Positions 3,711 to 28,619 of a DNA stretch of 34,657 bases are shown here, piece after piece. The notes beneath the pieces were generated by a model that searched no databases, had not been told where the DNA came from, and saw only the letters and a program-made list of their open reading frames with translations. This DNA comes from a virus. Positions within the stretch are counted from its first letter, which is position 1, and each line of letters begins with the position of its first letter. The translations under genes and the position numbers were made by a program. The stretch covers positions 1 through 34,657 of the IMG/VR virus record IMGVR_UViG_3300042154_000151; one strand, written 5' to 3'.

Positions 3711-4211
3711 ATGGCGAACACTAATCTATTAACGCAAGAGCGATTAAAAGAAGTGTTGAACTATGACGCTGAGTCTGGCGTGTTCACATGGAAGATCACC
3801 AGAACTAAAGCAGTAAAAGACATGGTAGCTGGAAACATTGATAGTCATGGATATTGGATTATTGGAGTAGATGGCGTAAGACATAGCGCACATAGACTTG
3901 CTTGGTTATATCTTTATGGTTTTTACCCAAAAGAGATTGACCATCAAAATCACAATAGGATTGATAATAGGCTTGTCAATCTTGAAGCAACTGACAGGTC
4001 TGGAAATGCTCGTAACATTTCAAAACCAATGAACAACAAGTCTGGCGTTATGGGAGTTTCTTGGACTAAAAGACTTGGCAAAAGAAACGACAAATGGGAA
4101 GTTAGGGCTTGCGGAAAGTTTTTAGGATATTTTGATAACTTTTTTGAGGCTGTTTGCAAGAGAAAATCGGCAGAACTTCAATTTGGCTTTCACCCCAATC
4201 ATGGAATTTAA
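3711..4211 (+). CDS. HNH homing endonuclease with C-terminal AP2-type domain
   Basis: A free-standing selfish DNA endonuclease, 166 residues. Residues 1-50 form a small N-terminal region (LTQERLKEVLNYDAESGVFT). Residues 60-101 form the HNH core, with H61, the D77-H78 pair and N90, followed by DRSGNARN. Residues 111-155 (SGVMGVSWTK, then KWEVRACGKFLGYFD) look like an AP2/NUMOD DNA-binding domain. A paralogue with the same layout lies at 17626-18114 on the other strand. The gene is AT-richer than its neighbours and sits between two structural genes, both signs of insertion. It probably cuts an allele lacking the insertion and spreads by repair; the target is not known. Confidence 0.9.
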   Translation: MANTNLLTQERLKEVLNYDAESGVFTWKITRTKAVKDMVAGNIDSHGYWIIGVDGVRHSAHRLAWLYLYGFYPKEIDHQNHNRIDNRLVNLEATDRSGNARNISKPMNNKSGVMGVSWTKRLGKRNDKWEVRACGKFLGYFDNFFEAVCKRKSAELQFGFHPNHGI

Positions 4212-18699: not shown

Positions 18700-18829
18700 T
18701 GCGTTTTAACCTTGGGCAGTTTATGCAGAACACTTTTTCCTTGGACTGACACACGCCAAGGGTCTCGCACTTGGTGCGTAGCGTTACCCACGGTGGCGGT
18801 GTTACCCATCTAGTTTTGACTTCCGTCAT
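18683..18829 (-). CDS. Small four-cysteine (zinc-ribbon-like) protein
   Basis: A 48-residue basic protein, too short to be found easily. It has four cysteines at positions 21, 27, 35 and 38 (KCETLGVC ... FCINCPR), a spacing that could bind one zinc, followed by a strongly basic tail (RLKRNAKKK). The start codon overlaps the stop of the repressor gene by one base (TAATG) and the end overlaps the next gene by 17 bases. The cysteines and overlaps argue for a real gene. It may be a nucleic-acid or protein-binding inhibitor of a host enzyme, but this is not shown. Confidence 0.68.
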   Translation of the reverse strand: MTEVKTRWVTPPPWVTLRTKCETLGVCQSKEKVFCINCPRLKRNAKKK

Positions 18830-19413
18830 TATGAATTCTTCTCTTTTAAGAATAATTGAACCAACATAATAAGATCGTATGTAGAAGTCTTTTGCAATTT
18901 TGAACAGATCAATATTGCGTCAATGTCTGCATGGTTTAGCAACTTAAAATTAGAGTTACTGCTTTCAATATCTCCTTCAAACTGCTCGCCAACAAGCAGC
19001 TCAAACTTTTCGAGTATCTCTTTAGTTGGTTTACTTCTGGCGGTTTCCCAATGAGCTATCGTTGATCTCAGCACGCAAAGTTCATTGGCTACATCTTCTT
19101 GTCTCAGGTTCTTGCGTTTTCTGGCGTAACGAAGCCAATGGGAAAGGCTATTCATGTTTAACGCAACGGCTGGAATAACTGATGATGCGTCTCTTAGCTG
19201 TGACTCACTAGCAATCAGAGTAAATTCACATTCAAAGAAATTGCAAAGCCTATCTAGGGCTGCCATGCGTGGATAAGAGTTACCAACTTCCCACTTGGCT
19301 ATTGACTGCTGGCTGATTGATACAGCGTCAGCAACCTGTTGCTGGTTTAGTCCTAGAGTAGTTCTCTCAAGCAGTAACTGCTTGGCAAACTTATTTGTGT
19401 AGTCTTCGCTCAT
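18829..19413 (-). CDS. XRE-family regulator with two helix-turn-helix domains (putative phage repressor)
   Basis: A 194-residue DNA-binding protein. The first HTH spans residues about 8-62 (KQLLLERTTLGLNQQQVADA, VSISQQSIAKWEVGNSYPRM). The second spans about 91-145 (HWLRYARKRKNLRQEDVANE, CVLRSTIAHWETARSKPT). Both have the usual QEDVA/SQQSIAKWE layout of the XRE/Cro-CI family. The C-terminus (about 150-194) is a short helical part with no peptidase motif, so RecA-stimulated self-cleavage is unlikely. It lies in the leftward operon that begins at the promoter by the operator at 20371, so it may repress its own promoter. Having two HTH domains in one chain is unusual for a CI-like protein. Confidence 0.85.
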   Translation of the reverse strand: MSEDYTNKFAKQLLLERTTLGLNQQQVADAVSISQQSIAKWEVGNSYPRMAALDRLCNFFECEFTLIASESQLRDASSVIPAVALNMNSLSHWLRYARKRKNLRQEDVANELCVLRSTIAHWETARSKPTKEILEKFELLVGEQFEGDIESSNSNFKLLNHADIDAILICSKLQKTSTYDLIMLVQLFLKEKNS

Positions 19414-20088: not shown

Positions 20089-20349
20089 TTACTTGCGTTC
20101 TACTGTGCCGACTAACTCGCCATCCATGATCTGGAACATAATTGTTTTAGCAACATTCAATGTTTGACGAGCACGCTCTACATCACCGTGTGCCATCAAT
20201 TCTTGAGCGTCAGACATAAGACCTGCGACGATCATATTTCCGCCAGTAAATTTGTAAGTGATAGATTGTTTTACTGACTCAATGTATGCGTCAATATCAG
20301 CAAAGCCATACATTGCTTCGTTGCGTGTAGTTTGTGTTGCGTTTGTCAT
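20089..20349 (-). CDS. First gene of the leftward operon, unknown function
   Basis: An 86-residue protein preceded by GGAG on the minus strand. The sequence shows helical stretches (NEAMYGFADIDAYIESVKQS, GLMSDAQELMAHGDVERARQ) ending in a Met/Glu-rich stretch (IMFQIMDGELVGTVERK). No motif is recognisable. It is transcribed from the promoter at 20382-20409 and its transcript may be cut back by the hairpin at 20061. As the first gene of the operon it may be made in larger amounts than the others. Confidence 0.78.
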   Translation of the reverse strand: MTNATQTTRNEAMYGFADIDAYIESVKQSITYKFTGGNMIVAGLMSDAQELMAHGDVERARQTLNVAKTIMFQIMDGELVGTVERK

Positions 20350-20370: not shown

Positions 20371-20391
20371 TTGATATGCGTATCATATCAA
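20371..20391. promoter_or_regulatory. Palindromic operator
   Basis: A perfect 8-base inverted repeat (TTGATATG and CATATCAA) with a 5-base centre. It overlaps the -10 element of the leftward promoter and ends two bases before the -35 element of the rightward promoter at 20394, so a protein bound there could control both. The two-HTH repressor or the Cro-like protein is the likely ligand (inference). Confidence 0.78.
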
Positions 20392-20409
20392 AGTTGACTA
20401 CATCATCAA
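20382..20409 (-). promoter_or_regulatory. Leftward sigma70-type promoter for the 16266-20349 operon
   Basis: On the minus strand, TTGATG (-35, 20404-20409) is separated by 16 bases from TATGAT (-10, 20382-20387). The predicted start lies about 25 bases upstream of the first leftward ATG. The -10 is inside the palindromic operator. Confidence 0.65.
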
Positions 20410-20428: not shown

Positions 20429-20564
20429 ACAACTTTGTCGGGTATTACCGCCATAAAATACATAGTGACAGGGTGTAGTTTCCCTGTCTGCTGTGCCTTA
20501 TGTCTCCGCAAGAGGTGCAGTTGCCTTGATAGGGGCTGGGTGACAGGACTCAGCCCCTTTTTTT
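20429..20564 (+). ncRNA. Structured leader or small RNA with alternate pairing
   Basis: From the promoter at 20394 to the terminator at 20564 no good coding frame occurs; the longest plausible one has nine codons. A 7-bp hairpin (GACAGGG/CCCTGTC, 20467-20488) is followed by the terminator. GACAGG occurs at 20467 and again at 20542 in the terminator loop, and CCTGTC at 20483 and 20566, so arms can swap partners. It may be a stable regulatory RNA or an antitermination leader for the rightward operon. Confidence 0.42.
20532..20564 (+). terminator. Strong Rho-independent terminator before the Cro-like gene
   Basis: A 10-bp stem (GGGGCTGGGT with ACTCAGCCCC, one G-T pair) encloses a 6-base loop, GACAGG, and is followed by seven T. 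It stands between the rightward promoter and the first rightward gene. Confidence 0.88.
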
Positions 20565-20571
20565 GCCTGTC

Positions 20572-20601
20572 TTGTTGAAGTAGTCAATTCTAGGTTAACA
20601 T
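20572..20601 (+). promoter_or_regulatory. Second rightward promoter, giving a nearly leaderless transcript
   Basis: TTGTTG (20572-20577) and TTAACA or TAACAT (from 20595/20596) stand 17-18 bases apart, so transcription would begin at or next to the ATG at 20609. No clear Shine-Dalgarno site precedes that ATG, which fits a leaderless message like that of lambda cI from PRM. Confidence 0.45.
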
Positions 20602-26782: not shown

Positions 26783-26846
26783 TTGTCCACAGTTGTGTGG
26801 AAACTGGCAGAGTTATCCACATTTATGCTTACAAACCTGTGGATAA
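26783..26846. promoter_or_regulatory. DnaA-box cluster, candidate replication origin
   Basis: Directly after the small terminase stop are TTGTCCACA (26783-26791), TTATCCACA (26813-26821) and TTATCCACA on the other strand (26838-26846). The last two are perfect matches to the strong DnaA box and face each other. An AT-rich stretch follows at 26847-26890. This suggests that host DnaA starts or aids replication here. Confidence 0.7.
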
Positions 26847-26856
26847 CAGCAAAATA

Positions 26857-26884
26857 ACTTTACATAATGAACATAGTGTAAAGT
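26857..26884. repeat. Perfect 8-base inverted repeat beside the DnaA boxes
   Basis: ACTTTACA (26857-26864) is matched by TGTAAAGT (26877-26884) with a 12-base spacer, in an AT-rich stretch 10 bases after the last DnaA box. It could be a protein-binding or unwinding element. Confidence 0.7.
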
Positions 26885-26922
26885 AGGAAAATACGACGAT
26901 ATGCGAATGTGTAGGATTCATG

Positions 26923-26938
26923 CTCTCTTCTAGGAGAG
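26923..26938. repeat. Small hairpin in the terminase intergenic region
   Basis: CTCTC at 26923-26927 pairs with GAGAG at 26934-26938 around a 6-base loop. No T-run follows. Role unknown. Confidence 0.5.
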
Positions 26939-26980
26939 TGGTCACTCACTAACCGATTCTGCCTGACTGATTAGGGTTTA

Positions 26981-27101
26981 CCCCCCCCTTCGATCTGCGC
27001 GACGGGGCGGGCTGAAACTGCACCCCGACAGATACCGAACCCACACCCCCCCCCACTACCCCTCCCCACAGCACCACACCCCCACAAAAAAATAAAAAAA
27101 A
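26981..27101. other. C-rich / A-rich strand-asymmetric tract before the large terminase
   Basis: The 338-base gap 26782-27120 holds no gene. Its second half has runs of eight C (26981-26988), nine C (27046-27054), four C twice (27059-27062, 27064-27067) and five C (27079-27083), then a run of A (27086-27101). On the minus strand four G-runs with loops of 3, 4 and 1 base could form a G-quadruplex. It may be the packaging (cos/pac) site or part of the origin; this is inference. Confidence 0.6.
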
Positions 27102-27119
27102 TCAAGGCACAATCCTGAC

Positions 27120-28619
27120 ATGACGACAGAATCAACTGCACCAGAAAAAAAGAAACTACACCCCGATGTGGTGGCAAAGATAGACCGCATCCAAGACAAG
27201 AGGGAAGACGAACTCAACAATAATCCCTTTGTTGCGTTCACCATACGCTACAAGAACAACCCCGTGCTCTTCGTCAGGGAAGTCTTAAAAGCAAACCCCG
27301 ACACTTGGCAAGAGACCTTCCTAACGCACATCGCAAAGGGCAACCGACGCATCTCTGTCAGATCAGGTCATGGCGTAGGAAAGTCCACAGCAGCGAGCTG
27401 GGCGATCATCTGGTACTTACTGCTCAGATACCCCGTCAAGGTGGTGGTCACCGCACCAACATCAAGCCAACTCTACGACGCACTCTTTGCGGAACTAAAG
27501 CGCTGGGTGAAGGAACTGCCTGAGACTTTGCGGGATATGCTCGAAGTCAAGCAAGACAGGATCGAGGTTAAGGAGGCAGCGACAGAGGCTTTCGTCTCCG
27601 CAAGGACATCGAGGGCAGAGCAGCCCGAAGCCCTACAAGGTGTCCACTCAGAGAATGTGATGCTGGTGGCTGACGAGGCATCTGGCATCCCAGAGGCTGT
27701 CTTTGAGGCTGCTGCTGGCTCAATGTCTGGACACAATGCCGTCACCCTTCTGCTGGGCAACCCTGTACGCTCTAGCGGATTCTTCTACGACACCCAGAAC
27801 CGACTGGCGAACGACTGGGTGACGATGAAGGTCTCTTGCGTTGACTCTCCAAGGGTCTCAGACGCATATGTCGAAGAGATGAAGTCGCGGTATGGTGAGG
27901 AATCCAACGCTTACAGGATCAGGGTACTAGGCGAGTTTCCAAGGTCAGACGACGACACCATCATCCCGATGGAACTCTTGGAGTTGGCAAAGCACAGGGA
28001 TGTCGAGACAAGCCAGCACGCCAAACTGATCTGGGGTCTGGATGTCGCACGCTTTGGTGGCGACAGGTCTGCACTCTCGAAGAGACAAGGCAACGCATTG
28101 ATCGAACCCACAAAGACTTGGAAAAACCTAGACTTGATGCAACTCACAGGAGCAGTCGTCGCGGAGTGGGAAGCATTACCGCCAAGCCAGAGACCACATG
28201 AGATCATGGTGGACTCTATTGGTCTTGGTGCTGGTGTCGTTGACCGTCTTAGAGAACTAGGTCTTCCCGCTAGAGGCATCAATGTCTCAGAGTCTCCAGC
28301 GATGGGTACGACTTACAGGAATCTAAGGGCAGAGCTTTGGTACAAGGCAAAGGCGTGGTTTGAGGCGCGTGACTGCCGTATCCCCAATGACGAGGAGCTG
28401 GTGGCTGAACTGGCGACTGTCAGGTACTTCTTTAGCAGCGCGGGGAAGATGCAGGTAGAGGGCAAGGACGACATTAGAAAGCGTGGCTTGAAGTCCCCCG
28501 ACAAGGCAGACAGCTTTGTGTTGACCTTTGCGAGTGACGCTGCCGTCTCGATGTTTGGTGCGAATACAAGCCAGAAGTGGTCGCAACCGTTGAAAAGAAA
28601 CCTGTCAAGGGTTGCATAA
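27120..28619 (+). CDS. Large terminase subunit
   Basis: A 499-residue packaging motor and nuclease. The ATPase has Walker A at 82-90 (SGHGVGKST, K88), Walker B at 180-187 (VMLVADEA, D185 E186) and a coupling motif at LLLGNP (210-215). The nuclease domain has D308 in 'LIWGLDVARFGGDRS', D365 in 'EIMVDSIGLGAGVVDRL' and D461/D464 in 'SPDKADSFVL'. Length and motif spacing fit a complete, functional protein. The ATG is preceded only by a weak, distant AAGG and lies just after the C-rich and A-rich tract, so translation may be poor. It starts the late packaging-structural operon. Confidence 0.95.
   Translation: MTTESTAPEKKKLHPDVVAKIDRIQDKREDELNNNPFVAFTIRYKNNPVLFVREVLKANPDTWQETFLTHIAKGNRRISVRSGHGVGKSTAASWAIIWYLLLRYPVKVVVTAPTSSQLYDALFAELKRWVKELPETLRDMLEVKQDRIEVKEAATEAFVSARTSRAEQPEALQGVHSENVMLVADEASGIPEAVFEAAAGSMSGHNAVTLLLGNPVRSSGFFYDTQNRLANDWVTMKVSCVDSPRVSDAYVEEMKSRYGEESNAYRIRVLGEFPRSDDDTIIPMELLELAKHRDVETSQHAKLIWGLDVARFGGDRSALSKRQGNALIEPTKTWKNLDLMQLTGAVVAEWEALPPSQRPHEIMVDSIGLGAGVVDRLRELGLPARGINVSESPAMGTTYRNLRAELWYKAKAWFEARDCRIPNDEELVAELATVRYFFSSAGKMQVEGKDDIRKRGLKSPDKADSFVLTFASDAAVSMFGANTSQKWSQPLKRNLSRVA

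Follow-up and report, generated by a model that had tools for sequence, protein, structure and literature searches.

A predicted small RNA family in the early control regions of freshwater phages

The early control region of a virus record of 34,657 bases, which in its entirety we call the window, very probably contains a gene for a structured RNA, and comparison of the available sequences indicates that this RNA belongs to a family carried by dozens of freshwater phages just before the same regulator gene, a cro-like gene. Our preferred reading, to which we give a probability of roughly 0.6, is that the locus is an independently transcribed phage small RNA (sRNA) gene of the early control region, whose product would pair with other RNAs through the loop of its second hairpin and the linker that follows. 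That the transcript would be a discrete one is suggested by the combination of a promoter-like element and a terminator, and the structure itself by compensatory base changes among relatives.

Anatomy and covariation of the predicted RNA

The features of the region are collected in Table 1, which sets out three hairpins, one linker element and the signals that surround them.

Table 1. Features of the control region in window coordinates
Feature	Position	Strand	Basis or remark
O1, operator-like dyad TTGATATGCGTATCAT	20371-20386	.	perfect 8-nt arms reach 20391
Leftward PL-like promoter	20382-20409	-	-35 TTGATG at 20409-20404, -10 TATGAT at 20387-20382
O2, operator-like 16-bp dyad TTGACTACATCATCAA	20394-20409	.	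consensus TTGAC-N6-GTCAA
-10 box TAAAAT, predicted small-RNA promoter	20454-20459	+	without a good -35 box
Predicted small RNA, about 99 nt	20466-20564	+	covariance models R1 and R2 match 20464-20564; start inferred from the -10 box
Hairpin H1, 7 bp, loop UGUAGUUU	20467-20488	+	contains the first GACAGG and CCTGTC; fold, double changes
Hairpin H2, loop exposes UCUCC (CUCC at 20504-20507)	20490-20521	+	fold, covariation
GUUGCC, end of H2 and start of linker	20520-20525	+	most conserved sequence element
H3, intrinsic terminator, 11-bp stem and T7, loop with the second GACAGG	20531-20564	+	fold, strong covariation
O3, operator-like 16-bp dyad TTGTTGAAGTAGTCAA	20572-20587	.	covers the cro-like promoter's -35 region
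-10 box TAACAT of the cro-like gene	20596-20601	+	7 nt before the ATG
Cro-like helix-turn-helix protein, 70 aa	20609-20821	+	adjoins the RNA in 74 of 76 relatives searched

The stretch at 20429-20575, which a preliminary description of this DNA had marked out for folding, does fold better than its shuffles (z -3.9), and the core at 20464-20564 does better still (z -5.05, with none of 200 shuffles as good). A transcript start at 20429, as had been supposed there, would lie some 37 nt too far upstream, since the conserved -10 box points to a start near 20466. Indeed, equivalents of this box (TACAAT, TAGAAT or TAAAAT) stand in the same place in many of 72 distinct loci, an automatic caller having picked other words in the remainder; no -35 box is recognisable at this promoter. 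The second hairpin had gone unmentioned before, and together with the linker after it this is the best conserved part of the RNA: UUGCC is present in 69 of the 72 distinct RNAs, and CUCC is mostly unpaired in 54 of them. The group of relatives in which CUCC is missing from the loop (L447 and L461, for example) is a real exception, and the anti-Shine-Dalgarno element is therefore not universal. A nine-codon reading frame within the RNA (ATG at 20500) was also considered and set aside, as by eye it is not kept in RNA types B and C.

Covariation supports all three helices, as judged from alignments of related sequences. In A1, a MAFFT alignment of 21 sequences that was not fitted to any structure (its structure line was written from the RNAalifold result together with single-sequence folds), 95.3% of cells are paired under the three-helix structure, a share that falls to 49-52% when the helices are slid by one to three columns. 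Cells with double changes number 32 in this alignment versus 9.4 in shuffles, and the covariation score is 0.292 versus 0.171, a value that none of 500 shuffles reached; within the terminator, for example, columns 78-95 of A1 carry C-G, G-C, A-U and U-A. A larger alignment of 45 sequences (41 distinct), which was built with model R2 and hence leans towards the structure, has double changes in 12 of 25 pairs, including six of the seven pairs of H1. The compensating changes that the preliminary description proposed to look for in related phages are thus present in each of the helices, and in H1 they go so far that the arm sequence is exchanged wholesale among relatives while its complementarity is retained.

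The region was originally singled out for four interleaved hexamers, and here the observations have held up well. GACAGG does occur at 20467 and 20542 and CCTGTC at 20483 and 20566, as a check of the sequence confirms; the first pair forms the perfect hairpin that was claimed for it (7 bp, 20467-20473 with 20482-20488), and the second GACAGG forms the loop of a strong terminator, whose 11-bp stem spans 20531-20558 and is followed by T7. The interpretation built on these words, an RNA switch or pseudoknot that works through interleaved pairing of the arms, is nevertheless scarcely credible. On paper the terminator loop could pair with the 3' arm of H1, but the complete alternation is a local affair, kept in one of 18 distinct terminator/tail variants compared among related phages (one of which ends before H1), and that one is the window's own. 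The loop is replaced in many relatives, where GACAGG, AAGAGG, GTCAAAC, GTAAAAC and ATCACTGT are all found, and the helices persist regardless; the text after the T-run is likewise variable, CCTGTC being almost private to the window at that place. Singly, the hexamers are common enough, with 18 copies of GACAGG and 8 of CCTGTC in the window against about 8.5 expected. The comparison of variants indicates that the alternation arises from H1 together with a chance recurrence of the H1 words in the terminator loop and tail, both of which change rapidly. A further suggestion, that the symmetry operates at the level of DNA only and the arms are half-sites for a binding protein such as the repressor, draws on the position of the region between clear operator-like dyads, but it fails for H1, whose arms have been replaced with complementarity kept, whereas binding sites would keep their sequence, as the TTGAC-N6-GTCAA dyads do. 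Because of the covariation, pure DNA symmetry is contradicted, and we regard this reading as highly improbable.

Operators, promoters and the leader alternative

The dyads at 20371, 20394 and 20572 are likely to be operators. In 71 of 73 loci O2 matches at least 8 of the 10 consensus positions, versus one in shuffles, and O3 does so in 60 of 73 versus four, and at the place of O1 relatives have TTGAT(G)..ATCAT. Together O1 and O2 cover the leftward promoter, and at its place relatives such as L003 have TTGACA and TATGAT. The -10 box of the small RNA lies outside the dyads, and the distance from O2 to the small-RNA promoter varies from 31 to 44 bp among relatives (counted by eye); because this box is free of operators and its distance from O2 is variable, the RNA may be produced when the leftward and cro-like promoters are under repression. 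On the other side of the RNA, nearly all of the 73 loci have a cro-like gene whose -10 box ends 6-7 nt upstream of the ATG, and a leaderless cro-like mRNA is therefore predicted.

The main rival to an independent sRNA gene is a leader that acts in cis, either an attenuator or a processive-antitermination element of a put-like or riboswitch-like kind, in which the hairpins would sense some factor and polymerase would pass the terminator into the cro-like operon. A structured element with a strong terminator ahead of an operon does have the anatomy of an attenuator, and in truncated transcripts the GCC of the linker can pair with part of the terminator 5' arm. That pairing, however, is inconsistent (0.09 to 0.89), and in eight diverse members the terminator 5' arm has no alternative partner that recurs consistently. 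Among relatives the terminator sequences vary freely with no matching changes upstream. In addition, a read-through mRNA would have no obvious Shine-Dalgarno sequence before 20609, and the downstream gene has, in nearly all of the loci, the closely placed -10 box of its own described above. The put RNA of phage HK022 has two adjacent hairpins near an early promoter and acts in cis to suppress terminators; unlike it, the window RNA has a strong terminator within about 10 nt of H2, and a separate promoter precedes the next gene. All in all we consider such a leader improbable, and the antiterminator-like leader offered in the preliminary description, for which no consistent antiterminator pairing was seen, is unlikely too. 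Its alternative suggestion of a regulatory RNA has proved the better one, supported as it is by a promoter-like element, a separate terminator, compensatory changes in three helices and a conserved place. As a side observation, in L091 and relatives with TTAACAGGGGGGCTAGG a truncated transcript can form a long helix between the 3' arm of H1 and the 5' arm of the terminator, and this helix is not shared by the other terminator variants.

Relatives and genomic place

Contigs of IMG/VR that match the locus were reached via two of its genes, the leftward gene of 86 aa and the cro-like gene of 70 aa, and the two lead to rather different company. Relatives found with the cro-like query that have upstream sequence all have a recognisable RNA between the leftward promoter and the cro-like gene, and some relatives to which only the 86-aa gene led have another kind of control region, lacking the RNA; because of the latter, we take the RNA to accompany the cro-like gene and not the 86-aa gene. 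Within the 86-aa family, L006, L013, L025, L033 and others have quite different control regions with no small RNA, and several such loci have CTAG-containing dyads. Among 76 more distant cro-like loci, searched with R2 at an E cut-off of up to 1, the model matches 74, always in the same place, the weakest match having an E of 0.027. H1 is absent from several distant types (L442, L447, L453 and L454), in which H2, AGUUGCC and the terminator remain.

The RNA and the cro-like gene are both found in all ten larger syntenic relatives examined, and BLAST finds the repressor-like gene with two helix-turn-helix motifs (18829-19413) in one of the ten and the 86-aa gene (20089-20349) in three. These last two genes appear to be swapped out among relatives that are otherwise syntenic, and the RNA and cro-like gene stay. 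Elsewhere in the window, the gene at 17626-18129 matches HNH endonuclease families and the protein encoded at 3711-4211 looks similar by eye; neither gene was found in the ten syntenic relatives, as expected for mobile endonucleases.

Beyond this set of relatives the searches returned little. The DNA of the locus has no match in 50,697 phage records apart from a 21-base chance match, and cmsearch of the five records with the nearest TerL gave two weak matches only, the better one in L408 and the other in L409 (E 0.048); the match in L408 is a terminator after a capsid gene and not the RNA. Weak model matches in L043-L050 were likewise discounted, as on reading by eye they resemble the beginning of the ruvC coding sequence. 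A lax pattern scan of the genome collection matched 117 stretches, and none of the 80 that were searched fits the model. The RNA model has no match in 399 genomes of the order of a Rhodoferax-labelled MAG, and a search of the same genomes with the portal protein gave one distant match only.

Proposed action, candidate targets and known counterparts

If the locus is an independent sRNA gene, RNA polymerase would start near 20466, from a promoter left uncovered by the flanking operators, and transcription would stop at 20564 with the intrinsic terminator; the product, about 99 nt long, would consist of H1, H2, the single-stranded linker and the terminator hairpin with its U tail, in that order. 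Such an RNA would act in trans by base pairing and lower the translation of phage and/or host mRNAs, its pairing elements being the CUCC of the H2 loop, which is complementary to the Shine-Dalgarno sequence GGAG, and the (G)UUGCC linker, with H1 as a replaceable module, perhaps contributing specificity for targets or stability. Our leaning towards base pairing is a slight one, and we have it because these two elements, the loop CUCC and UUGCC, are short, accessible and conserved. A bolder proposal, which we think decidedly unlikely, is that the RNA is an anti-Shine-Dalgarno silencer, working across the phage or the host while the early promoters are repressed, from which the leaderless cro-like mRNA escapes; if this is true, a silencer RNA would block Shine-Dalgarno-led translation and yet spare the master switch. 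Our search of the literature found no such two-part circuit of RNA and leaderless mRNA for phages.

No phage target conserved across the RNA types emerged among those examined, namely terL and the sequence GGCAAC at start codons. For the window's own group there is a tentative and rather doubtful candidate in antisense regulation of terL, which would delay DNA packaging. A scan of the window for complementarity found that, within RNA positions 20471-20530, the H1 loop, the H2 3' arm and the linker can pair colinearly with 27152-27163, 27133-27142 and 27101-27109. These antiparallel matches around the terL start codon comprise 12, 10 and 9 Watson-Crick pairs, and two of the pairing sites are largely single-stranded in the RNA. 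By chained-segment score terL is the top gene in all six type A genomes examined, and the fraction of window shuffles matching its score is 0.008 at a minimum segment of 7 and below 0.001 at a minimum of 8 (none of 1000), although several statistics were tried on this one observation and the smallest value is not to be taken alone. Against it, the pairing was found after the fact, by scanning, the 12-mer codes for conserved residues, several type A relatives lack sites 2 and 3, the score is not significant in G027 and is weaker in G021, and there is nothing at terL in relatives of types B and C. Whole-duplex energy did not single out terL either (192 of 430 shuffles were as good), and it was dropped as an uninformative target statistic. 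We therefore treat terL as a lead for type A and not as a finding. The long intergenic stretch before terL (26785-27110) has, by eye, the DnaA-box-like words TTATCCACA and TGTGGATAA together with a C-rich run, and is possibly a replication origin.

Other pairings were tried and rejected. One candidate partner for the linker was GGCAAC at start codons, but its matches do not stand out clearly from background, since in the window 10 of 90 permuted hexamers score as well. Pairing of the H1 loop with the 86-aa gene (AAACUACAC, 20325-20333) or with the start of the cro-like gene was set aside, since the loop differs both in type B and in L125, and L125 keeps the cro-like start.

As for known RNAs, no Rfam 15 family reaches its gathering score with the window RNA or with ten diverse relatives; C4 antisense RNA, which has an Rfam family, is among those that the window RNA does not reach. 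The best similarity of the window RNA is to AniS (RF02274), where it scores 21.9 bits (E 0.11) and the gathering score is 50. AniS is itself an sRNA and, aligned with the window RNA over the full model, shares with it a 5' hairpin, a middle part and a terminator hairpin with a U run, but it has no helix equivalent to H2, and we do not count the window RNA as a member; suhB and a microRNA were also sub-threshold matches and were rejected as the known family. In its proposed mode of action the RNA is most like the sibling sRNAs NmsRA and NmsRB of Neisseria meningitidis, which have three predicted stem-loops, with a UC-rich anti-Shine-Dalgarno motif in the loop of SL2 and another in a single-stranded linker, and which are chromosomal, their tested targets belonging to the TCA cycle (PMC5362039). 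Three predicted stem-loops and a single-stranded linker are common to both, and the CUCC in the H2 loop of the window RNA is a candidate counterpart of the motif in SL2, although the second anti-Shine-Dalgarno motif of the NmsR RNAs lies between SL1 and SL2, whereas the linker element of the window RNA comes after H2; the likeness is one of anatomy and proposed action, and we do not claim homology. Among phage RNAs, P22 sar, lambda OOP and P1 c4 are tied to the control genes of lysis and lysogeny, and as reviewed they are antisense RNAs to a named phage target (PMC12197685); the window RNA, in contrast, has no overlapping gene and no conserved phage target. VpdS of VP882 and PreS of lambda are phage sRNAs for which trans action on RNAs of both host and phage, and dependence on Hfq, have been reported (PMC12197685); like the window RNA they are phage-encoded, and their genomic places differ from its own.

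This RNA was not found in the open-access literature that we searched, and it is apparently an undescribed family, in a setting where phage control-region sRNAs as such are already known (sar, OOP and c4; PMC12197685). Phage control regions are usually read as repressors and operators only, and here they would gain a structured RNA family with strong covariation, one that is widespread among freshwater phage contigs. The RNA keeps its place though the left-hand genes and the repressor change, and this suggests a core role. Since its conserved elements, the CUCC of the H2 loop and the UUGCC linker, are short and defined, the mode of action that we propose for it is directly testable.
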